Of a stretch of 64,000 nucleotides of DNA, positions 28,770 through 60,961 are shown in pieces. The DNA lies in NCBI RefSeq assembly GCF_025398735.1, contig NZ_CP104694.1:2009001-2073000 (forward strand), in the 5' to 3' direction. The translations under genes and the position numbers were made by a program. A model generated the notes under the pieces. The model searched no databases, had not been told where the DNA came from, and was given only the letters and a program-made list of their open reading frames with translations. Within the stretch, counting starts at the first letter, position 1. Each line of letters opens with the position of its first letter. The stretch comes from Tahibacter amnicola. GTDB lineage: Bacteria; Pseudomonadota; Gammaproteobacteria; Xanthomonadales; Rhodanobacteraceae.

Positions 28770-30371
28770 ATGCATAAGCGGTTCAGATTGAAGTGGCGGC
28801 CGTTGAGCCGGGCTGTTTGCGGGGCCCTGCTCGGTGCAGCGGTTGTGCAAGGGGAAGCCTCGGCCATCACTGTGTCGCTGGGATCCCTGGTCGGTTCCAA
28901 TGGCTTTCGCATCGCAGGCGCTGCGGCGGGTGATTCCTCCGGTTTCAGCGTGAGCGCCGCGGGCGACGTCAATGGCGACGGCAAGCCGGACCTGATTATC
29001 GGGGCGCCCGATGCCGATCCGAACGGTGCCTCGTCCGGCAGTGCCTATGTGGTATTCGGGAAAAGTTCCTACAGCGCATCGCTGGAGCTTTCTTCGCTCA
29101 ACGGCACGAATGGTTTTCGCATTGATGGTGCCGCCGCCAATGACCGCCTGGGGATGGCGGTCAGTGGTGCAGGTGACGTCAATGGCGACCATATCGCCGA
29201 TATCATCGTCGGTGCCTATCACGCGACAACGAGCAACGGCGCCGAAGCGGGCGCCAGCTATATCATCTTCGGCCGAGCCACCGGCTTTCCCGCCACGTTG
29301 AATGTGTCAACGCTCAATGGCACCAATGGCGTGCGGCTGGAAGGTGACGCGGGTGAATATTCCGGTCGCGCCGTCGCATCAGCGGGTGACATCAACGGCG
29401 ACGGCCTGGGTGACACGATCATCGGGGCCTACCATTCCGGTGACGGGCATTCAGTGGGTTCCAGCTACGTCGTGTTTGGCAAGTCCGGTGCGTTTCCAGC
29501 GACGATCAACCTCAAGTCCATGAACAGTTCGTCCGGCTTCCGCCTGAGCGGGAACGGGCCGGGCGATCTTTCCGGTATCTCGGTCGGTAGCGCGGGTGAC
29601 CTCAACGGCGACGGCCGTTCGGACCTGCTTATCGGCGCCATCGGTACCGACAATCATGGTGAGAGCTCGGGCAGTACCTATGTGGTCTACGGCCGCAACA
29701 ATTTTCCCGGCAACGTGCCTCTGAACAGCTTGAACCCGAACACGGGGTTCCGTGTCGATGGCGAAGCTGAGGGAGATCGATCGGGAATTTCGGTCAACGC
29801 CGCTGGCGACGTCAACGGCGACGGCATCGGCGACCTGATCATCGGCGCCTACCTGGCCGATCCGCATGGCAGCTACTCCGGCCGCACCTATGTGGTGTTC
29901 GGCCGCCAAGGCGGCCTGCCGACCGACCTGCCGTTAAATTCCATCGACGGTGTCAACGGCTTCCGTCTCAACGGCGCGTCCGACGGCGACGTCGCAGGTA
30001 CGTCGGTGAGCCGCGCGGGCGACGTCAACGGCGACGGCATCGCCGATATCCTGATCGGTGCGCCAAAGGCTGATCCCGGTGGCGTGGAAGCCGGCCGCGC
30101 CTACATCATGTTCGGCAAGCGCGGTGCGTTTCCGGCGACGGTGGAAATGTCGTCCCTGCACGGCACGACTGGCATGGTGATCAACGGCGCATCCGGTGGC
30201 GACTACGCCGGCCAGACCGTGGGCGCCGCCGGTGACCTCAACGGTGATGGCCTGGGCGATGTCGTGCTCGGCGCGCCGGGTGCCGATCCGCACGGCAGTT
30301 TCTCGGGCAATACCTACGTCGTGTTCGGGAACGACACCATCTTCGCCAACGGTTTCGAACCGCAGCAGTAA
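28770..30371 (+). CDS. Secreted FG-GAP (integrin alpha N-terminal-like) seven-bladed propeller protein
   Basis: Protein of 533 residues with a signal peptide ending GEASA (about residue 32). Seven successive repeats of about 65 residues each carry the FG-GAP core AGDVNGDG.x.DxIIGA...SYVVFGK, enough for one complete seven-bladed beta-propeller; each DxNGDG loop is a calcium site. The protein ends DTIFANGFEPQQ, one of three tails of this type in the window. An ATG at 28752 is an alternative start. It follows the pilin operon but has its own leader. The ligand is unknown. Confidence 0.85.
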   Translation: MHKRFRLKWRPLSRAVCGALLGAAVVQGEASAITVSLGSLVGSNGFRIAGAAAGDSSGFSVSAAGDVNGDGKPDLIIGAPDADPNGASSGSAYVVFGKSSYSASLELSSLNGTNGFRIDGAAANDRLGMAVSGAGDVNGDHIADIIVGAYHATTSNGAEAGASYIIFGRATGFPATLNVSTLNGTNGVRLEGDAGEYSGRAVASAGDINGDGLGDTIIGAYHSGDGHSVGSSYVVFGKSGAFPATINLKSMNSSSGFRLSGNGPGDLSGISVGSAGDLNGDGRSDLLIGAIGTDNHGESSGSTYVVYGRNNFPGNVPLNSLNPNTGFRVDGEAEGDRSGISVNAAGDVNGDGIGDLIIGAYLADPHGSYSGRTYVVFGRQGGLPTDLPLNSIDGVNGFRLNGASDGDVAGTSVSRAGDVNGDGIADILIGAPKADPGGVEAGRAYIMFGKRGAFPATVEMSSLHGTTGMVINGASGGDYAGQTVGAAGDLNGDGLGDVVLGAPGADPHGSFSGNTYVVFGNDTIFANGFEPQQ

Positions 30372-30434
30372 CCGACGTATCGCATCCGGGCGGCCGCTGT
30401 CGCCAGGCAGCGGCCGTCGTGCGTTGCGGCGTTC

Positions 30435-31481
30435 TCAGCCAATGTCCGGTGGCAGTGACAAGGTGCGCTTGATGTCGTCGGCCATGAAGCCGACGGCCGC
30501 CGGATTGCATACGCCAGGCAGCACGGCGGTGTCGAACAGTTCCTCCACCACACCGTCAAGACGCAGCTCGTGCACGACGTCGCCGCGCTTGAGATCAATC
30601 ACGGCCAACCCGCAGCGGGCCGAGACGTTTTTCTCCGCCAGGCGCTGATCCAGCAGCAATCCATTGAAAGTGCGGTTCTGTCGCTGCCTGGAAAGACCGA
30701 CGACGGCAAAGTCGCCGCAGAAGCTCATGCCGCGCAGATAGCCGGCGCAGAAGGCGACGGGTTCGAACCGCCCGGCGGCAAGGTCCACATAGCCGAATTC
30801 GCCGGTGCCGGAATTGAGCACCCACAGCCTTCCCCGATACATCCGCGGCGAGTGCGGCATGGACAATCCTTCGCACACGATCGCACCGCTCTTCACGTCG
30901 ACGACGATGCCTCCCTGCGTGCGATGCTCGCGCCAACCCTCATTGGCATCGCTGCGCGCCACGCACGTCACGTAGGCGGGAGCGCCATCCGCCATCGCCA
31001 GCCCATTCATGTGGCAGCGGTCCTCGGCGGCGTAGCGGCTGACAAACGGCGGCTTCCACACCGGAATGAAACTGTAGCGGGCGTCCGGCCGCGCCAGGCA
31101 CGAGAACAAGGTGCTGACGAAGATCGGATCACCTGCCGCATCGATTCCGACATCGTGTACATCGATATCGCCCGTCGTGTATGCCAGTTGCGGGACGTAG
31201 TAGCGGTCATGTGCACCGAACACCTCGCCCGGCTTGAGCGCATTCTCAAATCGCCACAGCTGCCACAGCGTCGCGACCCACAAGGTGTCGCCCTGAGCCG
31301 CGAGACCCATCACGCGGGCGATCGTGCGGTTGAACACGGCCAGGCGCCCTGCCGGGTCGATCCCGACGAAAAACAGCTTGCCCGCCTGGTAGGTCGTGAA
31401 TGCCAGGCTCACCTTCTGTTCGGCCAGCCACGATTCGAACAATCGCGAGGAGTGGATCTCAAGGCCTGAGGGGTTGCTCAT
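30435..31481 (-). CDS. TIGR03032 family protein
   Basis: Protein of 348 residues without a signal peptide. It matches the TIGR03032 pattern as I recall it: an opening SRLFESWLAEQKVSLAFTTY, then YQAGKLFFVG, beta-propeller-like strands, CHMNGLAM, and PHSPRMYRGRLWVLNSGTGE. Members are found scattered in proteobacteria and their function is not known. The ATG at 31481 was chosen because family similarity starts there. It is followed upstream (on the same strand) by an AraC regulator. Confidence 0.75.
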   Translation of the reverse strand: MSNPSGLEIHSSRLFESWLAEQKVSLAFTTYQAGKLFFVGIDPAGRLAVFNRTIARVMGLAAQGDTLWVATLWQLWRFENALKPGEVFGAHDRYYVPQLAYTTGDIDVHDVGIDAAGDPIFVSTLFSCLARPDARYSFIPVWKPPFVSRYAAEDRCHMNGLAMADGAPAYVTCVARSDANEGWREHRTQGGIVVDVKSGAIVCEGLSMPHSPRMYRGRLWVLNSGTGEFGYVDLAAGRFEPVAFCAGYLRGMSFCGDFAVVGLSRQRQNRTFNGLLLDQRLAEKNVSARCGLAVIDLKRGDVVHELRLDGVVEELFDTAVLPGVCNPAAVGFMADDIKRTLSLPPDIG

Positions 31482-31552
31482 GGGCGAATCCGTCGGAGGC
31501 GTCGGCAGGCACAGGATACCTGTGTCGGCGCGCTCCTGGTCGTCCGCGGTAC

Positions 31553-32605
31553 TCAGGCGGGGCCAGGAAGCAGGCTCGCGCGCAGCGAGCATGGCGTAAG
31601 TCCAGTCCAGCGCTTGAAGGAACGGCGGAAATTCGCGGCGTCGTGAAAGCCGAGATAGGCGGCGGCGCGGCTGTTGTCCATGCCGACGGTGTGGAACAAG
31701 TGCAGCGATACGTGCGTGCGAACCCGGTCCAGCTCTGCCTGGAAATGCGTGCCGGACTGTGCGAGGTGCCGCTTGAGTGTGGCCGGGCTCACTCCCAGGG
31801 CAGCAGCCGCACTGTCCAGCGTCGGTGCGCGGCGGATGTGCTCGAACAAGTGATCGTAGAGCGCATCGACAACGCCGGGCGCGTGGTCCTGCGCGGCGGC
31901 CTCGCGACCGGCCATGGCGGCGGCCAGCGCATTGCCGCGTGGCCAGGGCACGGCCAGCCATCGTGCATCGATCAGCAGCGCGTCGAGCTGGCAGTTGAAG
32001 CGCAGCGACGGCCCCAGGTGTACTTCGTACTGGGCGCAGCGGCGTGGCGGCGTGCGGTTGAAGCAGAACTGCCAGGGCAGGCGTTGGCCACCCAGCCATC
32101 GCGCCATTGCCACGACGGCGCTCATCTGCAGGTCGACCAGGCGATGGTGCACCGAACCCGTGCCGTGGCTGTCAGTGAAGTACAGGACGGCCAGGGCCCC
32201 CTCCATCCGCAAGCGTGGCCGCAGCAGCGGGCTGAGCACGCTGGCGTGGCGGCAAAGCGCTTCCAGCGCGTGGCCGAGATCCGGTGCCAGGGCCATCGCA
32301 TGGCTGGCCGCGCCGAAATGTGCGGGCAGCAATGACTGGCCGAGCAGGAAGGGTTCGTCAGGCCCCGTGATGGCTGCGAACGTGGCTTCGAACAGGCGGC
32401 ACAGCTGCATGGCGCTGATCCGGCATGCGGCGTCATGCAACACCGCCGGCTCCAGTCCGGCTTCGCGCAGAATCCGTCGCGTGTCCACCTCGCAGCGTCG
32501 CACGTGGTCGATGATCAGTGCAGGCTGGTAGATCGTCGCGATCGCCGGTGTCTCTCGCAGTGTATAGGCGGTCACGGTGGTGTCTATGCGGCGTGTGTTG
32601 CCCAA
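31553..32605 (-). CDS. AraC family transcriptional regulator
   Basis: Regulator of 350 residues with an N-terminal arabinose-binding-type domain (about 20-215, PF12625-like: GLEPAVLHDAACRISAMQLC) and a C-terminal AraC helix-turn-helix pair (about 255-345: AAALGVSPATLKRHLAQSGT and AYLGFHDAANFRRSFKRWTG). The best start is a TTG at 32605, which overlaps the end of the GGDEF gene by 22 bases; no clear ribosome-binding site is seen and a GTG at 32575 is possible. It may regulate the neighbouring TIGR03032 gene. Confidence 0.83.
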   Translation of the reverse strand: MGNTRRIDTTVTAYTLRETPAIATIYQPALIIDHVRRCEVDTRRILREAGLEPAVLHDAACRISAMQLCRLFEATFAAITGPDEPFLLGQSLLPAHFGAASHAMALAPDLGHALEALCRHASVLSPLLRPRLRMEGALAVLYFTDSHGTGSVHHRLVDLQMSAVVAMARWLGGQRLPWQFCFNRTPPRRCAQYEVHLGPSLRFNCQLDALLIDARWLAVPWPRGNALAAAMAGREAAAQDHAPGVVDALYDHLFEHIRRAPTLDSAAAALGVSPATLKRHLAQSGTHFQAELDRVRTHVSLHLFHTVGMDNSRAAAYLGFHDAANFRRSFKRWTGLTPCSLRASLLPGPA

Positions 32606-33480
32606 TGTGCCGGGTGCTCGATTGCACGATTGAGTGCGCCGAGCAATGCCTCGGGTTCACCGTCGATGGATGATGCGCTGTAGCGCACCGTGAAGGAGAT
32701 CGCCTGGTCGTCGGCGCAGGTGTGATGGGTCAGTCCTTCGATGGCGCGCGCCAGACGTGCAGCATGCCGGAGCGCTTGCGCGGCGTCCCGGCCCGGCATC
32801 AGTACGGCGAAGCGATCGCCCGCATAGCGGCACAGCAGGTCTGCATTCCGCAGGTTCAGCAGCATCACCTGCGCCACGGCCTGCAGGACGCGATCGCCTT
32901 CAGACGGTCCGAAGGTGTGATTGATCCGATGGAAGTCATCAATGTCAAACAGCACCAGTGCGCCGCTTGTCGCCTGCTGGCCCGACAGTTCGAGGCGAAT
33001 CTGCTGCACGAGATATTCCGCATCAGCCAGCTGCGTCACACGGTCGAATGCACGATGTTCGCGGAACAGTCGCTCACGCTTGCGCAGTTGTCGCGACAAG
33101 GCGGATTGTTCCTCGCGCCAGAAATACAGCCCGGCCGTCAGCAGGATCACGCCCACCGGCATCAGCGTGCCTTCTAGCAGGTTGTCCCAGCGCTGCAGCT
33201 TGTCGACCTGGAAGAACTCATCGAGGCAATCCGTCCATGCCGCCAGCAGCACGGCAGCCAGGCCACCGGCCAGCAGCCGGGTGACGCGCCCGCGCGGTCT
33301 GCCGTCAAGCAGGAACACCAGCCACAGCGCACACATCAGCGTCGTGCCGCCCTCGCCAACGATATCGATCCACGTCCAGGCCTGCGGCGGCTTCGCACTG
33401 CCGGAAAACACGAATAGACCGAAAATGCCAGCCAGCGCCGCGGCGCAGCCCAGCAGGGTCGAACGATGCAAAGCCAGCAT
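32584..33480 (-). CDS. Membrane GGDEF-domain protein with degenerate active site
   Basis: Protein of 298 residues with four or so membrane helices in the first 130 residues (STLLGCAAALAGIFGLFVFSG; LMCALWLVFLL; LLAGGLAAVLLAAW; GVILLTAGLYFW), a charged coiled linker, then a GGDEF domain (about 145-298). The signature reads AGDRF, not GGDEF/GGEEF, while the inhibitory-site motif RxxD is intact (RNAD, five residues before). This suggests weak or no diguanylate cyclase activity and a possible c-di-GMP sensor role. The ATG at 33480 was taken; the frame remains open to 33591. Confidence 0.8.
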   Translation of the reverse strand: MLALHRSTLLGCAAALAGIFGLFVFSGSAKPPQAWTWIDIVGEGGTTLMCALWLVFLLDGRPRGRVTRLLAGGLAAVLLAAWTDCLDEFFQVDKLQRWDNLLEGTLMPVGVILLTAGLYFWREEQSALSRQLRKRERLFREHRAFDRVTQLADAEYLVQQIRLELSGQQATSGALVLFDIDDFHRINHTFGPSEGDRVLQAVAQVMLLNLRNADLLCRYAGDRFAVLMPGRDAAQALRHAARLARAIEGLTHHTCADDQAISFTVRYSASSIDGEPEALLGALNRAIEHPAHWATHAA

Positions 33481-33703
33481 GGTGCACCAGGATGCCCGGG
33501 AGAATTCGGCCAAACCGTATGTCGTGGCGATGACACTATGGCGACATCCACCGGCGACGGGTCCGATCAGCTCAGCGCGGAGGCGCCGCATCGTACCCTG
33601 CCGGCATCGCTGCGACGGGAGCGCGGCATCGCGTGGTCCGATCGGCTCACTGGCGTTCGAAAAATCGGAAAAACACCCTGATTTCCCATCAATTCGCGGT
33701 GTG

Positions 33704-33721
33704 ACGTCACGGGACTGTCAT
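33704..33721 (+). promoter_or_regulatory. Pho-box-like site before the TonB-dependent receptor
   Basis: acGTCACgggaCTGTCAT consists of two 7-base direct repeats 11 bases apart; the second is identical to the PhoB half-site CTGTCAT and the first differs at its first two bases from CTGTCAC. It lies 49 bases before the receptor start codon. The receptor and phytase genes that follow fit phosphate-starvation control. Confidence 0.55.
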
Positions 33722-33769
33722 GCGGTGACCTGAAAGTCCGCGACCTCACGTCGCTCAGGGTTGCCCCAC

Positions 33770-36082
33770 ATGAAAAACGATGCGAAGCGCACGGTGCTTG
33801 CCGTCGCACTGGCTCTGGCCATTGGACAGTCCCGGGCCGCGCCGGAACAGGCCGGCCCGGACGTCGCCACGTCCATGGACGAAATCGTCGTCCAGGCGGA
33901 CATCACCTATCGCGATCGCAGTGACGAGACACCACCGGTTCTCGTGTACGACCTGGAGTATTTCCAGCGCTTTGAACCGCTGACGGTGGGCGACATGCTC
34001 AAGCGCGTGCCGAGTGTCGCCTTCGTGTCCGACGTTCTGGAATACGACGGCGCCCAGCTGCGGGGCCTGCAGGCGGCATATACGCAGGTGCTGATCAATG
34101 GCAAGAAAGTACCCGGCGCTGGCGATGACCGCTCGTTCTTCGTCGATCGCATTCCGGCCGAACTGGTCGACCATATCGAGGTCGTCCGCAGCGCCAGCGC
34201 GAGCCGGTCCGGCGACGCCGTCGCCGGTGCGCTCAATATCGTGCTGCGCGAGGCCTACGCATTCGATGGCGCCTACCTGCGCGCCGGCGCGCTGCACTTT
34301 GACGATGGCACGATGAAACCCACCTACGGGGGCCTCGCCGGCGGTGATGTCGGCGGTGGCCGACTGCTCGCGGGCTTCAATGTGCAGGGGCGGTACAACC
34401 CCAAGCAGAAGCAGAGCGTCCGCTTTGAGGAGCCCGGCGGCGATTTCGTCGATCGCGAAGACCAGGATGATATCCGCGACGGTACCGACTACTCGGCAAA
34501 CCTGAGCTATCACCGCGAGTTCGGTCCGGGGGAGCTGGATCTGTCTGCCTTCCTGGTACGCACGGATCGCCGCGAATCGGAACACTCCGTCGAGTTCAAT
34601 GACCCCGTCAGTCGTGCCATCGCGCACCGGGTGTCGGTCAACGACCAGGTCGTCGATATCGATCAGGACAACTACTCCCTGGCCGCTTCGTACCGGTTCG
34701 AGGGGTTGGGTGGTGCGACAGAGATCTCGCTGCAACGCGCCGCTTTCGACGATTCGCGTTTCGACACGGAAGAAGAGAGCAGCTTCGATGACGAGGAAAT
34801 GCCGCCCGCTTTCGACGAACGCGAAGGCACGCGGACCCTGACGGCTACGCACGACACGGAAACGACCCTCCGGGTATCGCACCAGCGCGCCATCGGTGGA
34901 CGGCAACTCGCATTCGGGATCGATCTCCAACGCAAGGATCGTGACACGACACTGTTGACCGCCGAAGTCGATACGGACGAAGAGCACGCGCCGTTGCCGC
35001 CGTACACGGAATTCGTGCACGTTGCCAGTGACATCCAGGAACGGCGCGTCGATCCATGGATCACCTGGTCCGGCCAGGGGCGCGCGCTTCGGTGGGAAAC
35101 CGGATTGCGCTACGAACGTACCGACGCCGATATCCACTCCGACAATGAGGCTGTGGCGAATGAGTACCGCATCCTTCTACCGTCCGCCCACTTTCGCTGG
35201 GAGCTGAGCGATGGCGATCGCCTCCGGCTGTCGCTGGCGCGTACCGTGCGCCGGCCAGATTTCAAGCAACTGCTGCCGGTGACATTGGAGGAGGAGTTCG
35301 GTGACAACGATTTCATCGGCAATCCGTCCTTGAAACTGGAGAATGCCTGGGGTCTGGACCTGGGTTTCGAACATCGGCTGGGCAAGCGCGGCGTCGTAGG
35401 TATCAACCTGTTCTACCGTAACGTGCGGGACTTGATAGAAGTGGTGAACACGGGGACTCCCAGTGCGACGGCACTGGATGACTACGAAGAGGCGGTGGAT
35501 GAATTCCTTGAGGAACATCCCGGCGCGACCGCGGCCACGCCCGGCTATCCCGTATTTGACCCTGACAGCTTTGTTTTCAGTGCGGCCAATGTCGGGCACG
35601 GCCGCGTCTACGGCGTGGAGCTGGATGTTTCCACGCCGCTCACGGCGCTGGGGTTGCCGGATACCGGCGTGTTTGCGAACTACTCCTGGCTCGACAGTTC
35701 CGTGCGCGATGCGATGGGTGCGCGGCGCTTCAACAACCAGCCGCGCTTTGTGTACAACGTCGGCGTCATTCACGACATTCCATCGGTCGGTATGAGCGTG
35801 GGGGCCAGTTACCGCAAGCAAGGTGACGCCGAGCAACGCCTGCTTGCCGAAGAAGTGCGCACCGAGTACGGCGCCGATCTGGAGGCGTTCGTCGAGAAGC
35901 GCTTTGGCGACAGCGTGTCAGTCCGCCTGACTGCCTCGAACCTGCTCAACGCCAGGAAGGACGAGTTCTTCGGCAAGTTCGATACGCTGGGGGACCAGCA
36001 GGGTCGCGACTTCGACGAGTACGAGCTGGAAAGCGAGCAATCCGGCCCCGTCGTGCAGCTGATCGCCCGGTTTGCGTTCTGA
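33770..36082 (+). CDS. TonB-dependent receptor, probably for phytate or its products
   Basis: Outer-membrane receptor of 770 residues. A signal peptide at 1-24 ends SRA; the plug domain follows (VGDMLKRVPSVAF, AQLRGLQAAYTQVLINGKKVPG, VDHIEVVRSASA, AVAGALNIVLR), then a 22-strand barrel ending in Phe (VVQLIARFAF). The phytase gene starts seven bases after its stop, so they form one operon; pairing of beta-propeller phytase genes with TonB receptors is known in other proteobacteria. A Pho-box-like site precedes it. Substrate assignment is from context. Confidence 0.85.
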   Translation: MKNDAKRTVLAVALALAIGQSRAAPEQAGPDVATSMDEIVVQADITYRDRSDETPPVLVYDLEYFQRFEPLTVGDMLKRVPSVAFVSDVLEYDGAQLRGLQAAYTQVLINGKKVPGAGDDRSFFVDRIPAELVDHIEVVRSASASRSGDAVAGALNIVLREAYAFDGAYLRAGALHFDDGTMKPTYGGLAGGDVGGGRLLAGFNVQGRYNPKQKQSVRFEEPGGDFVDREDQDDIRDGTDYSANLSYHREFGPGELDLSAFLVRTDRRESEHSVEFNDPVSRAIAHRVSVNDQVVDIDQDNYSLAASYRFEGLGGATEISLQRAAFDDSRFDTEEESSFDDEEMPPAFDEREGTRTLTATHDTETTLRVSHQRAIGGRQLAFGIDLQRKDRDTTLLTAEVDTDEEHAPLPPYTEFVHVASDIQERRVDPWITWSGQGRALRWETGLRYERTDADIHSDNEAVANEYRILLPSAHFRWELSDGDRLRLSLARTVRRPDFKQLLPVTLEEEFGDNDFIGNPSLKLENAWGLDLGFEHRLGKRGVVGINLFYRNVRDLIEVVNTGTPSATALDDYEEAVDEFLEEHPGATAATPGYPVFDPDSFVFSAANVGHGRVYGVELDVSTPLTALGLPDTGVFANYSWLDSSVRDAMGARRFNNQPRFVYNVGVIHDIPSVGMSVGASYRKQGDAEQRLLAEEVRTEYGADLEAFVEKRFGDSVSVRLTASNLLNARKDEFFGKFDTLGDQQGRDFDEYELESEQSGPVVQLIARFAF

Positions 36083-36088
36083 GTACCC

Positions 36089-37954: not shown

Positions 37955-38043
37955 ACGGGCAGGCAGTGTGGCGTATGTGCGCGGCCCCTTGCCGTTGGGG
38001 TCGCTGTCGGGGAGGATGGGAAACCCTGGCCTGGGATCTTGCC

Positions 38044-38913: not shown

Positions 38914-39028
38914 ATCGCGGAAGGCCATCGTTGCTGCCACGTCATTCGGCGCCCGGCACGTCGTGCCGAACCATGCCCCCACGCCTTCACAAAAACAATT
39001 TACGGATTTTTCGTCCGTTGAAACATTA

Positions 39029-39046
39029 GTGTCATCACGCTCTGAC
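39029..39046 (+). promoter_or_regulatory. Pho-box-like site before pstS
   Basis: gTGTCATcacgCTCTGAC has two 7-base half-sites 11 bases apart. The first differs from CTGTCAT at one base, the second from CTGTCAC at two. It lies 110 bases before the pstS start; PhoB control of pstS is well known in other bacteria. Confidence 0.55.
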
Positions 39047-39155
39047 ATCTGCCCCTTAGGCTCGGGAATGTCCCATCCCCGGTGCCGGGTTTCCCGGCGC
39101 CGCAGCCCCGGCCGTGCCGGCGTTGCCGTGACGGCCATTCCCGAGGAGGTACGTC

Positions 39156-40193: not shown

Positions 40194-40677
40194 CACGCAG
40201 GTGGCGCCGGACGCGTCGCACGCGAATTCCGCTGTCCATGCGGCAGGTGTCCGCATCGTGGTGAAGCCACGGTCGACGGAAGTCGCCGGAACGTCCGGCG
40301 ACTTCCCGAAGCGCGCGTCTGTGTGATGTACCTCCTCGCGGAAAGGCACCTGCGCAGGTGGCGTGGAAGGGCCGTCAACCGCGGCCGCGGCAACGGAGTG
40401 GACGTCGGCCGGAACACGCGTTTGGCCCCGCGATTCCGACCGGCAATGCTGTCGTCAATAGCCATCGCGCATCGGGACGGTCGCAGGACGTCCTGCAGAT
40501 TTCACCATGATGATACGCATTCAGTAGCGTGTGTTTGCGCAGAAAACGCACGATCGGGCGACCGACAACTGCGGGCGCCCGGGTCGTGCGGTCACCTTCG
40601 GTGATCACACGCTCCTGGAGTCATTGCGCCATTCTCACGGCGTGACGACGGATGACGGGTACCTTCGTCAGAAAGGG

Positions 40678-40991: not shown

Positions 40992-41006
40992 TAAACTGGG
41001 GGCAAG

Positions 41007-42712: not shown

Positions 42713-42715
42713 TCT

Positions 42716-44614: not shown

Positions 44615-47600
44615 TTACTCGAAACCATCACGGAACAGCAGGTCGCCGCACTGGCCGTTGTCGGGAACCGTGGTGAGGAACGGGGTGTTCGCCAGACCCG
44701 TGAACGTCACATCGTCGATATCCCAGCCGGGTGCGCCGATGCCTTCGTCGCTACCGATGACAAAGCGGATGCGGATCGTCTGGCCCGCGTACGCGTTGCC
44801 AAGGTCTACCGTATACGTCTGGTAGGCCGGGTATCCGGCGCTGTTGCCCACGAACGCCTGCTGATTGGCGAGTGGATTGTTGCAGCAGTTGGAGATCGCG
44901 CCGCCGTAACTGGGTGTGACTGCGCTGCCGGCAATGGGATTCCAGCTCGTGCCGTTGTCGGTACTGATCTCCAGGCGGCCGCCGTCGTAAAACGTGGCCG
45001 TGCCTTCAAACGAATGGCGCGCCTTGAAGGTGAACCCGAAATTGCCGCTGGCGTTGACCTGCAGGGCGGGTGACTCAAGGTTCGTGAGGGCTGCGGAGGC
45101 CAGGTCCGGTCCGTTGGCAATGTGCTGCAGCGGGTCGACTTCGCGACGACCCCAGCGTTCGCTGCTGCCGCCGACACTGCTTGTCGGCGTCCAGGTGTAC
45201 TGCAGGCTTTCGAAATCTTCGCCGGCGGCTGGCGCGCTGTCGACGTTCACGCGAAATTGCTGCGAACCCGCTACGGGCGCCGGCAGTCCTCCGCCGCTGG
45301 CGACGTAGTTGACGGTGATGACCTGGATACCCGTCACGTCGTATAGTTGAATGGGCAGGTTGATCGACGCATTGGTCAGCGGCTGGATCACCGGCGTGGT
45401 GAAATCGGCCTGTGGGAAGTGCACCGTCGTATCCGGCGATGACAACGTGAGGTTGAATGCGCCGGCCTGGAAGCCATCGTTGCGGACATTGAGCACCAGG
45501 CGGCCGCTTTCCATGTTGTCGAGTTCTCCGTCGGCATCGCAGCTGCCGTTGCCATCGTCCGAGAGGCTGGCGCGTGACAGCGACGCGGAGACGCCGAGCG
45601 TGAAGCTCTCGACGACGCCGGCGTTGGTGGCGCTGTAGCGGTCGGAGGGGCCTTTCGCACCGACGCCCAGGCCGCGCCGGGCAAAGCCGGCGGCGCACAG
45701 CTGGAAGTCGGTCTGATCCTGCGCCCGGGCAGCCGCCAGGATGGCGTCGCGCGCTTCGACGAAGGTGGGCGCGAACGGCATCAGCTTGTAGCCGACCGTG
45801 AGATAGCGCTTCATACGCTCCTGCGCCTGGGCGAAGGTCAGGCGCTGCGTATCGCGTAGCAGGGAGCCATAGCATTCAAACAGCATGCTCGCCCAGACCT
45901 CGCCAGTGGCGTGCACCTCGGCGTTGTCGCCGGCAAAGGCCGGGGCCGGATTGGTCGGCAGGGGCGCACCGGTCACGATGTGACGGTACATCAGCGGGTT
46001 CTTGCGCAGGTTGTTCGAGTAGGGATAGCGCCGGATACCGTTGTAGTAGCCGTTGTTCGGGTTCACTGAGACGCTGGGCCCGCCCGAGGTATAGCCCGCC
46101 GCCGCGTACACGCCGGCGAAGTTCGGATTGCTGCCGACCTGCACGTCCTGCTCGGCGATCATCATGAGCAGGGCATGGAAGTCGCCGAAGCCTTCACCCA
46201 TGCCGCCGGAATGGTTGCTCGACAGGCCCGAGGAGTTCTGCACGAGGCGATTGGAGATATAGTGACCCCATTCGTGCGCGACGATGGCGTTGTCGATCGT
46301 GCCGTCGCGATCGGTACCCTTGGTGCGCATCATCGTCGCGGTGACACCCGGCAGGGACGCCTTGATCGCGTTGCCGTCGGCGAGGGTGACACGCAGCGCG
46401 GGAATGGTGACCGCCGGATCGGCGCCGCCCATGCTGGCCACGCCGCCGGCCACGTTGTCGGCGACGATGATGCCGGTGGCGCCGGCTGTCTGCGCATTCA
46501 TGGCCTTGACGGTGAAGTTGCAGTTGCCGCGGTCGACCAGGGCGATCTTGCCCGTCACCGGTGCGGTGAAGGCCTGGCAGCCATCGTTGGCGGGCGCGGT
46601 GCCGTCAACGGCAAGCACCACTTCGCCGCTGTGATTGAACTGCTGCGCGCCGAAGCCGGTGGCGACACCCGTGGCGTAGTCGCCGGTCTGCGTGCCGGCC
46701 GTGGTCATGTGGCTGGCGCTCTTGCCGTCGAACACGTACATGCGCATGCGCGGGTGATAGCCGTCCGCCGGCGTGGACATATTGGCGTTGTTGCGCCCGG
46801 AGACGTCTTGCGCGAGCGTGCGCAGGTTGTCGTTCCCCAGGCCGCCGCGGCCGTAGTTGTCGTTCTGCGCATTGCCGGCGGCTTCGTTGAAGCCCACGTC
46901 GTAGAAGTCGTCGTGCAGCCAGTTGTTCGTGTAGAAGAGCTGCGTCGTCGCGGCCTTCACCTGGGCGGGTGTCACCTGCGGCCCGGCACTGGTGTCGTAG
47001 GTGCGGTCGAAGGTGCCGGCAGCGGTGAGTTCGGGACGGTAATCCTGCGGCGGATCGAAGGTGGAGGCGCCGGGCGTTGCGTCCTGAAGGTTGGCGAAGG
47101 CATCGACGTTGTTGCCTTGCGTATCCGTGGCGTTGTCGGCCAGCCAGGGGTCGTTGACGGCGACCGAGGTAGGCGGCAGGGCGTTGATCAACGTGATCAG
47201 GCCCGGTGCAACGAAGGCGGGCTGGAAACCGTCGGCCATGCCCGTCGGGTGGGGCGTCGCGCCGCGGCCTTCCGGGCCCGGCTGCGGTGTGCGCGTGGCG
47301 GGATCGGCCCAGACGCGATAGGTGAACGGGGTGAGATCGTTGGTCAGATTCTTGCGGAACAGCAGGTCGCCGTTCTTGGCGGAGACGACGTAGGCGAAGT
47401 ACTCGTCCAGTTCGCCGTTGTTGCGGGCGACGTCCGCTTCAACGTAGTAGGCGGCTTCCAGTCCCGCAGCGGTGCGGAAGAAGACCGGCCGCGCGCGTGC
47501 CGGCGCGACCAGTCGCGCACCGTCGCGGCCTTCCGCATCGAGCGTGAAGAAGGTGTAGCCGTCGCGATCTTCGGTGCGATCGAGCTGGGCCATGAGGTCC

Positions 47601-48220
47601 GCATCGGCAAACCCGTAGCCGGCCAGCACGCCGGCGACGGCCTGCTGCGCGGAACGGCGGAACAGCGAATCGGTCCGCCCGTGGCGCAGGGTGCCAGCGC
47701 CGGAGAGGACGCCGCCGATGCTGTTGAGCGCACCGTCCGCATTGATCAGCACGGATGTGCGTTCGCGGAAGACTTCCACGCCGTTGATGTGGTGCGCGAA
47801 CTGCACCAGCGCGGCACCGTTGGGCATGCGCTGCAGATCCTGCACGTGAAGGGCGTCGATTTCATCCGGCTCGATCCGGTAGGCGCTGCGCAGCGTCTTG
47901 AGGTAGTCGCGCGCCACGGCGGCGGGATCGTTGCGCAGCAGGAGCGAGTCGGAAAGCTTGGGTGTGTGCTCAGTGGCCGACAGGAAGGTGGGCAGGCCGA
48001 GCTGGTCATTGAAGTGACCGCGGAAACTGTCGAGTACGGCGGCTTCGCGGACGGCCGGCGCCTTGTCTGCCGGTGCCAGCGCCAGCGCGTCGAATCCGCT
48101 GGTGGCGCCGGCCTGGCCGGCACCGGCAAGCAGGGACAGTGCAGCACAGAGTGCGCTTATCAACGGTTTCCGGCCAGACACGCGCCATCCATGCTGCGAG
48201 GTTCGCATCAAAATCGCCAT
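44615..48220 (-). CDS. Secreted M36 (fungalysin-like) metalloprotease
   Basis: Exported zinc protease of 1201 residues. A signal peptide ends AGATS region (about residue 40), followed by a FTP propeptide and the M36 catalytic domain. The zinc site is HEWGHYISNR with the downstream Glu in GMGEGFGDFHALL. A PA domain is inserted before it (GKIALVDRGNCNFTVKAMNA). The C-terminus has beta-sandwich domains (FGFTFKARHSFEGTATFYDGG) and ends GDLLFRDGFE, the tail shared with two other secreted proteins here. ATG at 48220 has AAGGAAAA upstream on its strand. Confidence 0.9.
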   Translation of the reverse strand: MAILMRTSQHGWRVSGRKPLISALCAALSLLAGAGQAGATSGFDALALAPADKAPAVREAAVLDSFRGHFNDQLGLPTFLSATEHTPKLSDSLLLRNDPAAVARDYLKTLRSAYRIEPDEIDALHVQDLQRMPNGAALVQFAHHINGVEVFRERTSVLINADGALNSIGGVLSGAGTLRHGRTDSLFRRSAQQAVAGVLAGYGFADADLMAQLDRTEDRDGYTFFTLDAEGRDGARLVAPARARPVFFRTAAGLEAAYYVEADVARNNGELDEYFAYVVSAKNGDLLFRKNLTNDLTPFTYRVWADPATRTPQPGPEGRGATPHPTGMADGFQPAFVAPGLITLINALPPTSVAVNDPWLADNATDTQGNNVDAFANLQDATPGASTFDPPQDYRPELTAAGTFDRTYDTSAGPQVTPAQVKAATTQLFYTNNWLHDDFYDVGFNEAAGNAQNDNYGRGGLGNDNLRTLAQDVSGRNNANMSTPADGYHPRMRMYVFDGKSASHMTTAGTQTGDYATGVATGFGAQQFNHSGEVVLAVDGTAPANDGCQAFTAPVTGKIALVDRGNCNFTVKAMNAQTAGATGIIVADNVAGGVASMGGADPAVTIPALRVTLADGNAIKASLPGVTATMMRTKGTDRDGTIDNAIVAHEWGHYISNRLVQNSSGLSSNHSGGMGEGFGDFHALLMMIAEQDVQVGSNPNFAGVYAAAGYTSGGPSVSVNPNNGYYNGIRRYPYSNNLRKNPLMYRHIVTGAPLPTNPAPAFAGDNAEVHATGEVWASMLFECYGSLLRDTQRLTFAQAQERMKRYLTVGYKLMPFAPTFVEARDAILAAARAQDQTDFQLCAAGFARRGLGVGAKGPSDRYSATNAGVVESFTLGVSASLSRASLSDDGNGSCDADGELDNMESGRLVLNVRNDGFQAGAFNLTLSSPDTTVHFPQADFTTPVIQPLTNASINLPIQLYDVTGIQVITVNYVASGGGLPAPVAGSQQFRVNVDSAPAAGEDFESLQYTWTPTSSVGGSSERWGRREVDPLQHIANGPDLASAALTNLESPALQVNASGNFGFTFKARHSFEGTATFYDGGRLEISTDNGTSWNPIAGSAVTPSYGGAISNCCNNPLANQQAFVGNSAGYPAYQTYTVDLGNAYAGQTIRIRFVIGSDEGIGAPGWDIDDVTFTGLANTPFLTTVPDNGQCGDLLFRDGFE

Positions 48221-49382: not shown

Positions 49383-49415
49383 GCGGGCTCCTCAGTGGTG
49401 TTGTCGTGGCGCCGG

Positions 49416-52687: not shown

Positions 52688-52721
52688 TCGGGACATCCTT
52701 TTTCTGGTGTATTTGTAAGAA

Positions 52722-53876: not shown

Positions 53877-53984
53877 GCGCTCGTCGCCCCCCAAGAGCGA
53901 CGTGGATATCGAACAGTACGTAACACGCTGCCAACGACGCGGGTGCGGGACGCAGCGTCGCAGGACGCGTACAACAGATGGCAA

Positions 53985-55769
53985 TCAAAGGGGTTCACAG
54001 CGCCGGGCCAGCCAGTCCTTTTCGTCCGGCGTCAGCAGTGGACCCACGCCATCGAGCACGGTGCGGTGATAGCGGTTCAGCCAGTCGACTTCCGCGCCAT
54101 CGAGCTGTTCGCGCACGATCGGACGGGTGTCGATGGGGCAAAGTGTCAAAGTCTCAAAAGAGAGAAATTCACCAAACTCGGTGGTGCCGGCGGCAACGGT
54201 CGCCAGAAGGTTCTCGATGCGCACCCCGTGGCGACCCGGCCGATAGATGCCCGGCTCGTTGGACGTGACCATGCCTTCCACCAGGGCAACGGGGGGTTCG
54301 GCGCTGCTCGGGCGGATCGATTGCGGGCCTTCGTGGACGTTGAGGAAATAGCCCACCCCATGCCCGGTGCCATGCCCGTAGTTGATGCCGGCCGCCCAGA
54401 TCGGCGCGCGCGCCAGGGCGTCGAGCTGCTGGCCGGTGGTGCCGCGCGGAAAGCGGGCGTGCGACAGGGCGATCATGCCTTTGAGCACCAGGGTGTAGTC
54501 GGAACGCTGTTCGGTCGTGGTCGGGCCCAGTGCAATGGTGCGGGTGATGTCCGTCGTGCCGCCTTCGTACTGGCCGCCCGAGTCGACCAGGAGGAGTCCT
54601 TCCGCGCGAAGCGCCGCGTGCTGCGTCGGCGTTGCCCGGTAGTGCGGTAGCGCGCCGTTGGCGAGGTAGCCGGCAATGGTGGCAAAGCTCTCGCCGACAA
54701 AGCCTGGCTGACGGCTGCGTTCATGACGCAGGGCGGCGTCGATGTCCAGCTCCGTCAACGGCTGGCCACGCGCCAGTTGTTCCTCCAGCCAGCGCAGGAA
54801 GCGCACCAGGGCTACGCCGTCGTGGCGCATCGTCTGGCGGATGTGGGCCAGCTCCTCGCGGCTCTTGGCCGCCTTGAATGCCTGGCTGGGGTTGGGGTGG
54901 CGGATCTGCCGCACCGATGCCGGTGCCGCCTCGGCGATAGCGGCGACGATGCGCCGGGGATCGAGCCAGAGCCGGGCGTCGGCGGGCAGGTGCGCCAGCG
55001 CAGGCGGGAGCGTGTCGTACGGCGCCAGGTGAATACCGTCCCGGGCGAGTTCAGCGGCCAGCTCGTCGGCGATCTTGCCCGGATCAATGAACAGGGTGCT
55101 GTGCTCCGGTCCGATCAGCAGGTGGGCGAGAAAGACCGGGTTGTAGGCCACGTCCGTGCCACGCAGGCCAGTGATCCAGGCCACGTCGTCCAGCGCGCTG
55201 ACCAGGTGGTGCGTAGCGTCCTTCTCCCGCATCGCCGTGCGGACCCGGGCGAGCCGTTCGGCGCGGGTAGTGCTGAGGTAGGCCGGTTCATGGGCGCGCA
55301 CCGGATGGGCAGGGCGCGCCGGGCGGTCGGTCCAGATGCGATCGACCGGGTCCAGGTCCGTGCGCAGGCGGCGTTCGTTCTCGAACTGGCGGCGCAACTG
55401 ATCCTGGGCTGCGAGGGAAAGGGTATCGCCGGCGACAGCGACGGTGGCGTCAGCTGGCGTGTTCCCGGCAATCCACGCCGCGTGATCGGGAATGCCGGGA
55501 TTTCCCTGGCGCATCAGGGTGATGCCGCTGCCATCGAGCTCCTGGGCGGCCTGTTCGAAGTAGCGTGAGTCGGTCCAGAGCCCGGCAAATTCCGCGGTCA
55601 CGACGAGCGTGCCGGCCGAGCCGCCGAAACCGGAGAGCCACTGCCGTGCCTGCCAGCGTGCCGGCAGGTACTCCGACAGATGCGGATCCGCCGACGGAAC
55701 GACCAGCGCAGCGACCCCCTCGGCGTGCAAGATCTGGCGCAGGGCGTCGATGCGTTCGGGAATGGACAT
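53985..55769 (-). CDS. pepP: Aminopeptidase P family protein (M24B)
   Basis: Metallopeptidase of 594 residues with three domains, like eukaryotic-type Xaa-Pro aminopeptidase 1: two creatinase-like N-terminal domains (starting IPERIDALRQILHAEGVAALVV) and a C-terminal pita-bread domain. Metal ligands are seen in LLLVDSGGQYEGGTTDITRT (Asp pair), GHGTGHGVGYFLNVHEGP (His), VTSNEPGIY (Glu) and IENLL (Glu). It removes N-terminal residues preceding proline. The ATG at 55769 begins the conserved part. It is transcribed away from the repeat array. Confidence 0.88.
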   Translation of the reverse strand: MSIPERIDALRQILHAEGVAALVVPSADPHLSEYLPARWQARQWLSGFGGSAGTLVVTAEFAGLWTDSRYFEQAAQELDGSGITLMRQGNPGIPDHAAWIAGNTPADATVAVAGDTLSLAAQDQLRRQFENERRLRTDLDPVDRIWTDRPARPAHPVRAHEPAYLSTTRAERLARVRTAMREKDATHHLVSALDDVAWITGLRGTDVAYNPVFLAHLLIGPEHSTLFIDPGKIADELAAELARDGIHLAPYDTLPPALAHLPADARLWLDPRRIVAAIAEAAPASVRQIRHPNPSQAFKAAKSREELAHIRQTMRHDGVALVRFLRWLEEQLARGQPLTELDIDAALRHERSRQPGFVGESFATIAGYLANGALPHYRATPTQHAALRAEGLLLVDSGGQYEGGTTDITRTIALGPTTTEQRSDYTLVLKGMIALSHARFPRGTTGQQLDALARAPIWAAGINYGHGTGHGVGYFLNVHEGPQSIRPSSAEPPVALVEGMVTSNEPGIYRPGRHGVRIENLLATVAAGTTEFGEFLSFETLTLCPIDTRPIVREQLDGAEVDWLNRYHRTVLDGVGPLLTPDEKDWLARRCEPL

Positions 55770-56023
55770 GTCAGGCAGGGGCGGCGGGTCAACCGCCCAC
55801 GCTAGTCGTTTCAACCTGGGCCTTCAAGTCTGCTGACACATAACTGTCACCGGGCGACGGGGCTGGCCGTCAAGTGGTCCGGCACGGTTGCGCCCAAACC
55901 CGTCGTCGGCCGGACCAGGTGACCTGCGCCGGGGCTGGACAGCGTCGGCGCCGTGCCTGACGGAGTCCGGCCCGCACATCTCCCGGCGATCCCCCGGCAG
56001 ACGGCGTCCCGTGCGGGCATTTT
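55770..56023. other. Non-coding sequence before the tandem repeats
   Basis: Very GC-rich and without a gene. It should hold the pepP promoter on the minus strand, which was not identified. Confidence 0.5.
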
Positions 56024-56870
56024 GGCCGCCCCCTTGACTCAAGGGGGCTCCAGAGAAATTCCGTGCACCGGGGCTGGTCTTGCCGTCCCTGGCGATCATT
56101 CGCTCGCAGCTAGGGGTAGATGCCTGTGACAGGTCTCCACAACCCCGCCAAACGCTGGCGGTGCCAGCATTTGGCCGCCCCCTTGACTCAAGGGGGGCCG
56201 GAGAATTCCCGTGCACCGGGGCTGGTCTTGCCCTCCCTGGCGATCATTCGCTCGCAGCTAGGGGTAGATGCCTGTGACAGGTCTCCACAACCCCGCCAAA
56301 CGCTGGCGGTGCCAGCATTTGGCCGCCCCCTTGACTCAAGGGGGCTCCGGAGAATTCCTGTGCACCGGGGGTGGTCTTGCCCTCCCTGGCGATCATTCGC
56401 TCGCAGCTAGGGGTAGATGCCTGTGACAGGTCTCCACAACCCCGCCAAACGCTGGCGGTGCCAGCATTTGGCCGCCCCCTTGACTCAAGGGGGCTCCAGA
56501 GAATTCCCGTGCACCGGGGCTGGTCTTGCCCTCCCTGGCGATCATTCGCTCGCAGCTAGGGGTAGATGCCTGTGACAGGTCTCCACAACCCCGCCAAACG
56601 CTGGCGGTGCCAGCATTTGGCCGCCCCCTTGACTCAAGGGGGCTCCAGAGAATTCCCGTGCACCGGGGCTGGTCTTTCCCTCCCTGGCGATCATTCGCTC
56701 GCAGCTAGGGGTAGATGCCTGTGACAGGTCTCCACAACCCCGCCAAACGCTGGCGGTGCCAGCATTTGGCCGCCCCCTTGACTCAAGGGGGCTCCGGAGA
56801 ATTCCCGTGCACCGGGGCTGGTCTTTCCCTCCCTGGCGATCATTCGCTCGCAGCTAGGGGTAGATGCCTG
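56024..56870. repeat. Six-copy tandem repeat, period 148-149 bp
   Basis: Units begin with GGCCGCCCCCTTGACTC at 56024, 56173, 56321, 56470, 56619 and 56768; the sixth is cut short at about 56870, where pyrG's promoter begins. Units are nearly identical, differing at a handful of sites (for example CTCCAGAG or CTCCGGAG, GTCTTGCC or GTCTTTCC). Each contains CCCCCTTGA-C-TCAAGGGGG, a perfect inverted repeat, and a second hairpin in AACGCTGGCGGTGCCAGC. Short open frames inside it are by-products of the repetition. Confidence 0.95.
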
Positions 56871-59398
<2,528 letters not shown>

Positions 59399-59414
59399 GA
59401 GGAAATGGAATCCG

Positions 59415-59654
59415 ATGCACGATGAGGCCGCTGTAAAGCTCCTGACGGAAATCCGCGATATCCAGCTGCGGCTGGAATCGTCCTACCAGGAAACGGCAAG
59501 GCGTGCACTGGAGATCCAGCAGGCCGCCGTCGAGACACAGCGTGCGGCCTACGAACAGCAAATGCGTACGGCGAGGCTGTATCGCCGGGTTGTGGGAAGT
59601 TCGGCGGTGATCATGGTGATCATCCTGTTCATGGCATTCCGTTCGTCCTTTTGA
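59415..59654 (+). CDS. Small membrane protein with coiled coil
   Basis: Protein of 79 residues. Residues 1-52 are an amphipathic, charged helix (VKLLTEIRDIQLRLESSYQE, RRALEIQQAAVETQRAAYEQ) likely to form a coiled coil; residues 57-75 are a membrane helix (VVGSSAVIMVIILFMAF) close to the C-terminus. The orientation would place the coil in the cytoplasm. GAGGAAAT lies ahead of the ATG. It is 16 bases after kdsA and probably cotranscribed. Family not recognised. Confidence 0.75.
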   Translation: MHDEAAVKLLTEIRDIQLRLESSYQETARRALEIQQAAVETQRAAYEQQMRTARLYRRVVGSSAVIMVIILFMAFRSSF

Positions 59655-59782
59655 TGATGCCGCAGGCCCCCGCCCTTGCATGGACCGGAGTCCGGCGTTC
59701 CCCGTCGTTCTCCCGGGCAAGGCAGGCGCGGCATCAGGGAAGGTATCGCTCGCGAACAAATGCTGGTGCAGGAGACTTCAAA

Positions 59783-60961
59783 ATGAACAAGTACGCAAAA
59801 TGGATGGTTGCGGGAATGGCAGTGCTGGGTGCTGCCGCCCCGGATGCGGTGTTGGCGGATGCGCAGCGGCTCGGTCCGCCAGCCGGCGGTACCGCTTACC
59901 CGGCCTTCGCCCAGAATATTGCGTTGGATGACCTCACTGGCACAGTGGCAGCCAGTTCGCATCTTGAGCAAAATGCGGGAACATCGAATCGGGGAGCAGT
60001 CGAGCTGTTCCGCCGTGCTGACAGTGGCTGGAATCACGTCGGAACACTGAAGGATCCGACGGCGGATATTTTCGGATGGCGCCTGGCAGCGGGTGATGGA
60101 TGGATTGCTGTCGGTGCTGCGGTGTCCGGCACGCACGTCATCGATCTGTTCCAGAATACGGGCGCTGGATGGGTCTATCGCCAGCGCCTGGTGCCCTCCA
60201 TACCCGGCGTGCCTGCCGTCCATCTCGGCAAGATCACGCTGGACGGCGGGAACCTGCTGGTCGGTTCCAGCTATTTTCCGGGGAACATGCCGGGAAAGAC
60301 CCAGGTGGAGGCCTACCGCCTGGTGGGTGAGACCTGGCAATCCGAGGGCGTCCTGGAAACGCCCTACGCCCGGTGGTACCTGGGCCGCGCGATGGTGCTG
60401 TCCGGTGACTCCGCGGTCGTCACGGTGGAGTTCCCGACCCTCGACCAGGCTCCCAAATTCGCCAGCTTCGTCCGCAATCAGGGGCAGTGGCAGCACGTTT
60501 CCAGTGCCCTGGCGCCCGCGATCGACTATCCCTATGTCAATCATGCCCTCGCAATCTGTGGTGGCAACTTGTTCGTCTCCGTCCGCTCGGTAAACGTCGA
60601 CGGCGGCAACGGCCTCGTCCAGCGATACACCGGCAGCGCCTCTGCCTGGACGCCTTCCGGCAATCCGCTGACGAGCGGCGACCACTATTTTGGCTGGGGC
60701 CTCGGCTGCTCAGCAGGCGCGCTGGGCATCACTGCGCCCGGAGCGCAAAAGGCGTATCGCCTTGCGCCGGGACATGGCGCCGAGCTGGAAACACTGCAGA
60801 CGCCCGAGTACACCGGCAGGGCCTTCGACGACAACCAGGTTGTGGTGCACGCCAACGACGTCATCATCAACGACATGTGGGGGCTGGTACCGGCTGTCGG
60901 CTACGTCGGTGCGGCGTTTGCCTTCCTCGATGATCGTCTGTTCCGCCATGGTTTTGATTAA
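59783..60961 (+). CDS. Secreted beta-propeller-like protein of unknown function
   Basis: Protein of 392 residues with a signal peptide ending AVLADA (about residue 26). The body has repeated beta strands of the type GAVELFRRADSGWNHVGTL, VIDLFQNTGAGWVYRQRL and VEAYRLVGETWQSEGVL, the pattern of FG-GAP-like propeller proteins, without clear calcium loops. It ends DDRLFRHGFD, like the tails of two other secreted proteins in this window. AGGAG precedes the ATG. It is inserted between kdsA and eno. Confidence 0.72.
   Translation: MNKYAKWMVAGMAVLGAAAPDAVLADAQRLGPPAGGTAYPAFAQNIALDDLTGTVAASSHLEQNAGTSNRGAVELFRRADSGWNHVGTLKDPTADIFGWRLAAGDGWIAVGAAVSGTHVIDLFQNTGAGWVYRQRLVPSIPGVPAVHLGKITLDGGNLLVGSSYFPGNMPGKTQVEAYRLVGETWQSEGVLETPYARWYLGRAMVLSGDSAVVTVEFPTLDQAPKFASFVRNQGQWQHVSSALAPAIDYPYVNHALAICGGNLFVSVRSVNVDGGNGLVQRYTGSASAWTPSGNPLTSGDHYFGWGLGCSAGALGITAPGAQKAYRLAPGHGAELETLQTPEYTGRAFDDNQVVVHANDVIINDMWGLVPAVGYVGAAFAFLDDRLFRHGFD

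Follow-up and report, generated by a model that had tools for sequence, protein, structure and literature searches.

Three proteins of the window share a C-terminal tail

We analysed a stretch of 64,000 nucleotides from the genome of Tahibacter amnicola (hereafter the window; positions 2009001-2073000 of a single contig of 6,458,662 bases), which encodes an FG-GAP repeat protein, an M36 metallopeptidase and a secreted propeller-like protein that share a short C-terminal peptide, hereafter the tag (Table 1). A sequence-only reading of the window had noticed this tail on the three proteins, and translation confirms each of them where it had been placed. Specifically, the FG-GAP protein ends with NDTIFANGFEPQQ (stop codon at 30369-30371, plus strand), the M36 protease ends with CGDLLFRDGFE (stop codon at 44615-44617, minus strand), and the propeller-like protein ends with LDDRLFRHGFD. 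The pattern [LIVMF]F.[DNH].F[DE] has exactly three matches in the window frames of at least 60 aa, and these three lie 3, 0 and 0 residues before the stop codon. Comparison with Pfam and NCBIfam bears out that the domains upstream of the tail are otherwise unrelated, and none of the NCBIfam models matched by the three proteins describes the tag itself. The M36 protease scores below the cut-offs of NF038112, NF038111 and NF038113 (1260 of 1500, 805 of 1700 and 352 of 885 bits, respectively). An AlphaFold model of the FG-GAP protein, calculated with no alignment, has a pLDDT of 29 and was discarded.

Table 1. Tagged proteins of the window and the class A cluster of the same genome. Coordinates are window positions unless marked G000:C1 or L206. 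G, f, g and L denote genome, family, genus and locus, and G000 is the genome of the window. Class A is our label for a gspC-gspD-gspE cluster of a type II secretion system (T2SS) with a PDZ-type gspC.
Feature	Coordinates	Strand	Evidence or remark
FG-GAP repeat protein, 533 aa, signal peptide, tagged (L064)	28770..30371	+	Translation; PF01839 E 3.4e-50; signal-like start
Tag D-T-I-F-A-N-G-F-E, then PQQ and stop (L064)	30333..30359	+	Translation, frame reading
M36 metallopeptidase, PA and MAM-like regions, 1197 aa, tagged (L065)	44615..48208	-	Translation; PF02128 E 5e-78
Tag D-L-L-F-R-D-G-F-E adjoining stop (L065)	44618..44644	-	Translation, pattern search, frame reading
Secreted propeller-like protein, 392 aa, no confident family, tagged (L066)	59783..60961	+	Translation; only FG-GAP_2 at E 0.58; signal-like start
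Tag D-R-L-F-R-H-G-F-D adjoining stop (L066)	60932..60958	+	Translation, pattern search, frame reading
Class A gspC-gspD-gspE	G000:C1 about 1305900-1310070		Locus fetch
Class A gspC, split over two frames	L206 about 12550-13536 = G000:C1 about 1305550-1306535		Membrane-anchor half and PDZ half separate

The tag is a conserved nine-residue peptide

Across the whole genome, the strict tail pattern followed immediately by a stop codon occurs at 19 sites, all but one of them at the end of a real frame, whereas the reversed control has one site. With the stop requirement lifted, F-x-[DNH]-G-F-[ED] occurs at 79 sites, again compared with one for the reversed control. Reading of the frames from 8 kb fetched around each of these 79 sites places 63 within 11 residues of a stop codon, in frames that average 729 codons as fetched. 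The consensus is D-x-[IL]-F-x-[DN]-G-F-[ED], nine residues long. Relative to the first F (63 of 63), position -3 is D in 47 and E in 9 of the 63 C-terminal tags, position -1 is I in 28, L in 27, V in 6 and F in 2, and the residues that follow are most often A (26) or R (15), then D (32), N (30) or H (1), G (63), F (63), and E (43) or D (20). The search pattern itself fixes F, G and F and sets D/N/H and E/D; D at -3 and I/L at -1 are absent from it and are therefore conserved independently. The chain ends directly at the final E or D in 18 of the 63, and the commonest next residue is P (17). Furthermore, the 63 sites comprise 60 different 18-base sequences, indicating that the peptide is conserved rather than a DNA repeat and ruling out a repeat or terminator artefact. 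The tag itself is certainly real.

The remaining 16 sites, judged by eye, comprise four near an N-terminus, five between domains or short of the chain end, and seven in chance-like frames. In particular, the N-terminal tags of L087 and L101 directly follow a plausible signal-peptide cleavage site, those of L082 and L108 lie about 50 residues from the start, and the internal tags are those of L057, L075, L091, L092 and L125. L108 and L125, in which the tag lies near the front or in mid-chain, have Pfam matches to polysaccharide lyases and are likely extracellular enzymes. The C-terminal position described from the window thus holds for most sites, and fails for the four N-terminal and about five internal copies. 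If these copies are functional, the tag is a portable linear tag and is not strictly C-terminal. L092 (G000:C1:3606928), by its look an RHS/YD-repeat-like protein, carries DIIFKHGFE inside the chain. In families f10 and f4 the tag has dialects in which G is replaced by S or R (DSFE, DRFE; L137, L138, L145 and L159), a replacement that weakens the idea that Asn-Gly or Asp-Gly chemistry is the point of the motif.

Tagged proteins are enriched in signal peptides

A strict home-made signal-peptide rule is passed by 50 of the 63 tagged frames and failed by 13, compared with 44 passes among 148 untagged coding-like frames nearby (Fisher 2e-11); the test has a small asymmetry, in that tagged frames were read stop-to-stop and controls from the first start codon. 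A lenient rule (60 of 63 compared with 92 of 148) is too loose and was not used. The tagged proteins belong to unrelated families, including subtilases, FG-GAP, PKD, cadherin-like, DUF11, beta-helix, BNR and MauG-type proteins, among the first 25 of 63 NCBIfam and the first 25 of 66 Pfam families matched. No tag-specific model occurs among the same 25 NCBIfam families, in agreement with the earlier impression that the tail has no named family. The genome scan and the enrichment among signal-peptide proteins, proposed by the sequence-only reading as its own check, thus come out in its favour. In clusters built from 518 called frames, no recurrent machinery was recognised near the tagged genes.

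The tag is nearly confined to one order

A search of 369 genomes of the class with D-x-[LIVMF]-F-x-[DN]-G-F-[ED] gives 51 matches in the genome of the window and 24 in that of a congener. One or two matches each are found in 23 of the 364 genomes outside the order, 24 in total, and only two of these 24 (L184 and L185) lie at the C-terminus of a frame that reaches 60 aa. Two non-order genomes, G303 and G456, have real tails, and their GspE identities are 69% and 61%. Among the genomes of the class, the tag is all but restricted to the order. Among the 299 genomes of the order, tag counts are sharply bimodal, switching on and off by genus, with up to 185 tags per genome by a later pattern and 202 by a looser one; tag-poor genera of f1 and f2 have 0-4 by the later pattern. 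Tag matches were read as full proteins for the genome of the window, and figures for other genomes are pattern counts. The largest set, 185-202 matches, is that of G279 (g12), a genome of 4.8 Mb.

These observations support the tag as a lineage-specific label of exported proteins. The earlier suggestion of a sorting, secretion or anchoring signal of the lineage stands to that extent.

The tag co-occurs with a second T2SS across the order

The sequence-only reading had also proposed a search for a co-occurring transporter or sortase-like gene. The machine that co-occurs is a second T2SS, that of class A, and not a sortase. Besides class A, we distinguish class B, a full operon of the other type, which we presume to be comparable to Xps; class B-type T2SSs are found in both tag-bearing and tag-poor groups. 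In 49 genomes scanned with the secretin profile TIGR02517, all 25 tag-bearing genomes have two secretins above the cut-off and all 10 tag-poor genomes of f1 have one; tag-poor genomes of f2 mostly have one (two in G061, none in G001). The two secretins are distinct: in local alignments, the class A GspD (GspD_A) of the genome of the window is 53-68% identical to sequences of seven tag-bearing genomes (f1, f2, f4 and f6) and 24-34% identical to other secretins, and its GspE (GspE_A) is 70-79% identical to class A sequences of tag-bearing genomes compared with 46-50% for others.

We then set a GspD_A search (E<=1e-110) against counts of [DE]-x-Phi-F-x-[DN]-x-F-[ED] (at least 7 tags) over the 299 genomes of the order. 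Both are present in 96, the tag only in 17, the secretin only in 15 and neither in 171 (Fisher 1.4e-43). Among the 210 genomes at least 97% complete, presence of the tag matches that of the class A secretin in 203 (both in 53, neither in 150), with the tag alone in 2 and the secretin alone in 5. Class A is thus present in 53 of the 55 tagged genomes of this completeness; of the remaining two, G114 matches in part (E 1e-107) and G063 has class B-type matches only. Genus medians (80 genera, completeness at least 90%) give 27, 2, 3 and 48, the last figure, 'neither', wrongly including g55 of f9, in which G064 has the secretin and G167 a class A-like GspE, both genomes being tagged by the looser pattern. 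The median tag count is 28 with class A and 1 without. Within families, the contrast is clear in f1 and f2, and is seen for one genus in f8 and one genome in f9. G019, an f9 genome of 4.7 Mb and completeness 100 in a tag-rich family, has one tag match and no GspD-family or GspE_A match.

This co-distribution is observed; that the tag serves as an address label for export by the class A T2SS is a reading that we advance tentatively and regard as falling just short of probable.

Class A GspC carries a PDZ domain and may read the tag

In the genome of the window, class A GspD and GspE score 548 and 690 bits (cut-offs 351 and 630), and the GspC frame scores 86 (cut-off 102). The class A cluster of G028 contains T2SSC with PDZ, and T2SSF. 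A putative gspN in that cluster, guessed from position, proved to be an alpha/beta hydrolase, and the class A pseudopilins and GspL/M were not located. The PDZ domain (PF13180) is found in class A GspC in both cases scanned (8.3e-8 for the genome of the window and 5.2e-7 for G028), and relatives of our GspC frame have PDZ-like ends at 39 of 39 class A loci in 32 genomes. No PDZ domain is found in the candidate GspC of class B, whose own match to its family is weak (14 bits, cut-off 27). In a midpoint-rooted GspE tree of 41 rows, two fragmentary class B rows of which are flagged as long branches, a class A clade supported at 91/90 holds all 14 tag-bearing class A rows.

In Vibrio, the PDZ domain of EpsC is required for export of VesB (PMC12369372), and in Dickeya a 9-residue loop of PelI contacts both GspC and GspD (PMC7949064). 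Together with the PDZ domain of class A GspC, these contacts lead us to propose that the tag docks folded cargo to class A, with the GspC PDZ as the first candidate reader. Specifically, tagged proteins would first pass the inner membrane via Sec and then fold in the periplasm with the tag exposed on a flexible end or linker, and the tag would recruit them to the class A T2SS for transport across the outer membrane. As a second, Xps-like T2SS of class B is present in the same cells, the tag would help to sort cargo between two machines. In its full form, namely a linear barcode read by the GspC PDZ (or by GspD) of one T2SS and sorting tens of cargo proteins in each genome, or close to two hundred by pattern counts in the richest, the proposal is possible, though we would sooner doubt it than rely on it; the GspC PDZ as reader is its more speculative element.

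Cargo recognition by T2SSs is a long-standing question, and no common linear signal is known according to papers of 2021 and 2025 (PMC7949064, PMC12369372). With a tag that about 60 proteins of one genome share, and whose distribution over an order tracks one of two T2SSs, the question can be put to a direct test. If the reading is true, the tag would predict the secretomes of many environmental bacteria and could be grafted for protein export.

Exceptions to the co-distribution and shared ancestry

A number of observations weigh against export by class A. First, tag and machine are at times found apart. The serious exceptions are G063 (97% complete, f8), with 17 tag matches and neither GspD_A nor GspE_A, and G257 and G082, which have class A and no tags (2 and 1 strict matches) and lie inside the class A GspE clade, G257 keeping its gspD-gspE pair. 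The small f10 genomes G089 and G183 (1 and 2 strict matches) bring the tag-poor rows of that clade to four. Tags with neither GspD_A nor GspE_A also occur in G048, G059, G123, G168, G182, G188 and G209 (73-96% complete, fragmented) and in G122 (f8, fragmented or incomplete). In f8 the tag counts overlap, at 1, 1, 2, 3, 19 and 33 with the secretin compared with 0-17 without, and the secretin of 19 tag-poor f2 genomes is intermediate (E 1e-56 to 1e-105), presumably of the Xcs type, so that the class boundary is not empty. Second, our own gspC is split over two reading frames, by either an assembly error or a real frameshift, and is a single frame in G150 and G028; the class A GspE clade is modestly supported and includes G303 of another order; and PDZ domains classically bind chain ends, while the tag also occurs inside chains. 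Third, the link to the T2SS is a correlation among related genomes, with two clear and two weak within-family contrasts rather than hundreds and with a modest set of controls. The genes profiled were those of the T2SS, rhombosortase and PF03934 (GspK), the last matching 75 of 76 genomes, apparently via helix-hairpin-helix proteins, and hence uninformative as a T2SS marker. Finally, the tag and secretin cut-offs were chosen after the tables had been viewed; at completeness of at least 97%, eight alternative combinations give p from 2e-27 to 3e-41 (5, 7 or 10 tags; at E 1e-110 or 1e-140 the range is 7.5e-39 to 3e-41, and at E 1e-60 it is 2e-27 to 6e-30).

The 17 tag-only genomes, G178 included, contain five with partial or split GspD matches at 41-56% identity (G114, G128, G153, G177 and G212) and one with a weak match (G167), and four have a class A-like GspE (G118, G128, G153 and G167). 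On the secretin-only side, G005 and G064 are tagged by the looser pattern (26 and 25), G230 and G156 lie outside the class A GspE clade (so does G275, with a secretin that misses the cut-off), and G127, G143, G156, G176, G197, G205, G220 and G226 are 63-89% complete. The exceptions G257 and G063 would be informative on what the tag needs.

A rather improbable alternative is phylogenetic coincidence, in which tag and class A are both ancestral to the order and were lost together in a few lineages with no direct contact, the tag having another role such as chain-end shielding or matrix-polymer binding. The clustering of on and off states by genus and family, which implies few independent events, favours it, as do G257 and G082, G063 and the f8 overlap. 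Against it, none of 14 random gene segments of the genome of the window, compared with six tag-bearing and six tag-poor genomes, fits the pattern of 6/6 and 0/6 among the matches listed. Five segments present in all six tag-bearing genomes at good identity (by eye, a carbon-nitrogen hydrolase, an aminotransferase, a YceH-like protein, rpsB and uvrA) are also present in 4-6 of the six tag-poor ones, likewise among the matches listed. The nearest control, an apparent sugar dehydrogenase, is found in 6/6 tag-bearing genomes (E 3e-35 to 7e-14) and in at least two tag-poor ones, where the matches are weaker (5e-11 and 1e-8). Coincidence would also have to accommodate the class B-type T2SS in both groups, and the T2SS was an a-priori candidate as a machine for folded exported proteins. 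The segment of the apparent sugar dehydrogenase clusters with two frames at tagged loci. T2SSs are common in bacteria of the class outside the order, and no tag-rich genome is found among the 364 there, which tests T2SS-bearing genomes without the tag only indirectly.

Cargo families and M36 relatives bear on export and anchoring

Several families matched by the tagged proteins are named after anchoring systems: rhombosortase-dependent M36 (8 members), myxosortase-dependent M36 (7), T9SS-dependent M36 (3), choice-of-anchor Q (5), CSLREA (3) and rhombotarget A (3), counted at E up to 0.01 and perhaps matched partly via shared domains. Among relatives of the M36 protease with a complete C-terminus (our own locus and that of Hyalangium left out, and six loci running off the stretch uncounted), the tag is present at 7 of 15 peptidase-region loci of tag-bearing genomes compared with 0 of 1 in tag-poor ones (G268). 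For loci sharing the PA or MAM-like region only, the counts are 3 of 3 compared with 0 of 4. The tails at the peptidase-region loci read, for example, FANGFDAD, FADGFESD and FRDGFETLP, with the variants FRDSFE and FADRFESGR. Untagged M36 proteins of the tagged genomes G291, G012 and G281 resemble another M36 paralogue. The expectation that orthologues keep the tail therefore holds for part of them, and the M36 comparison is suggestive, not strong; the frequent absence of the tag from M36 proteins of tag-bearing genomes (8 of 15 peptidase-region loci) is a further point against export by class A. Among named genomes, the M36 scan yielded one locus, that of Hyalangium, whose C-terminus has a Cys-containing stretch, a hydrophobic run and arginines, a shape that we take to be MYXO-CTERM.

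These data bear on a second alternative, in which the tag marks proteins for surface retention or anchoring and is recognised, after T2SS export or alongside it, by some other factor specific to the order (such as a receptor, ligase or processing enzyme), class A being a shared road and not the reader. We consider it unlikely, yet to be kept in view. The cargo matches families that are anchored elsewhere, the Hyalangium homologue ends in an apparent anchoring tail, and the tagless M36 proteins, kept in G268 and frequent in tag-bearing genomes, look as if the tag were an added step. On the other side, helix, Cys and basic cluster are all missing from the tag, its N-terminal and inter-domain copies are ill-suited to a cleave-and-attach reaction, and rhombosortase is not associated with it. 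No partner gene was found, in an analysis that did not extend to genome-wide profiling or to exosortase and myxosortase.

Comparison with known sorting and secretion systems

Export by class A can be set beside several systems with a similar logic. No account of the tag was found among the papers listed in literature searches, one of which, by motif letters, gives no valid negative because the fragment NGFE is too common. That the tag is a degenerate form of a known C-terminal sorting signal (PEP-CTERM/exosortase, GlyGly-CTERM/rhombosortase, MYXO-CTERM/myxosortase or the type IX secretion system, T9SS) is very improbable and largely refuted by its anatomy, even though these systems follow the same many-proteins-one-tail logic with overlapping cargo families. 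The T9SS likewise sorts diverse cargo, including M36 proteins, by the C-terminus, as the NCBIfam T9SS-dependent M36 model reflects; unlike the tag, its C-terminal domains are much longer and serve a Bacteroidota machine, and none is found among the 25 NCBIfam and 25 Pfam families considered above. PEP-, GlyGly- and MYXO-CTERM are tripartite tails of motif, transmembrane helix and basic cluster. By contrast, the 63 C-terminal tags have 0-11 residues after the motif, none has a helix with a basic cluster, and there is no Cys column; in this the tag differs from the PEP-CTERM precedent named by the sequence-only reading.

GlyGly-CTERM resembles the tag in logic, one short C-terminal signal on many unrelated exported proteins (PMC3237569), with overlapping cargo families and, like MYXO-CTERM proteins, a route to the surface via the T2SS (PMC11980579). 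It differs in needing the transmembrane helix and basic cluster, and its enzyme, rhombosortase (TIGR03902), is below the cut-off in all 25 tag-bearing genomes and above it in 2 of 24 tag-poor ones; the nearest misses among tag-bearing genomes, which speak for kinship, are the rhomboids of G028 and G150, 1.3 and 3.9 bits below the cut-off. MYXO-CTERM with its myxosortase MrtX resembles the tag as a phylum-wide tail on dozens of proteins with T2SS-dependent surface display, and an M36 model is named after it; an invariant Cys, a helix, an Arg cluster and lipidation set it apart, none of which the tag has (PMC11980579).

Two further comparisons concern the T2SS itself. In GspN-linked sorting of lipoproteins, a short motif near the mature N-terminus is needed for surface export, as would hold for the tag; that motif is GGG or ND(N/D) beside the lipobox cysteine, a different sequence confined to lipoproteins (PMC12802150). 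Recognition by the GspC PDZ and GspD, as for EpsC/VesB and PelI/Pel3, is alike in relying on a short exposed loop and on PDZ-dependent export. Those signals are structural and belong to single proteins, (PMC12369372, PMC7949064), whereas the tag is a linear sequence that stands at the end of 63 frames in a single genome.

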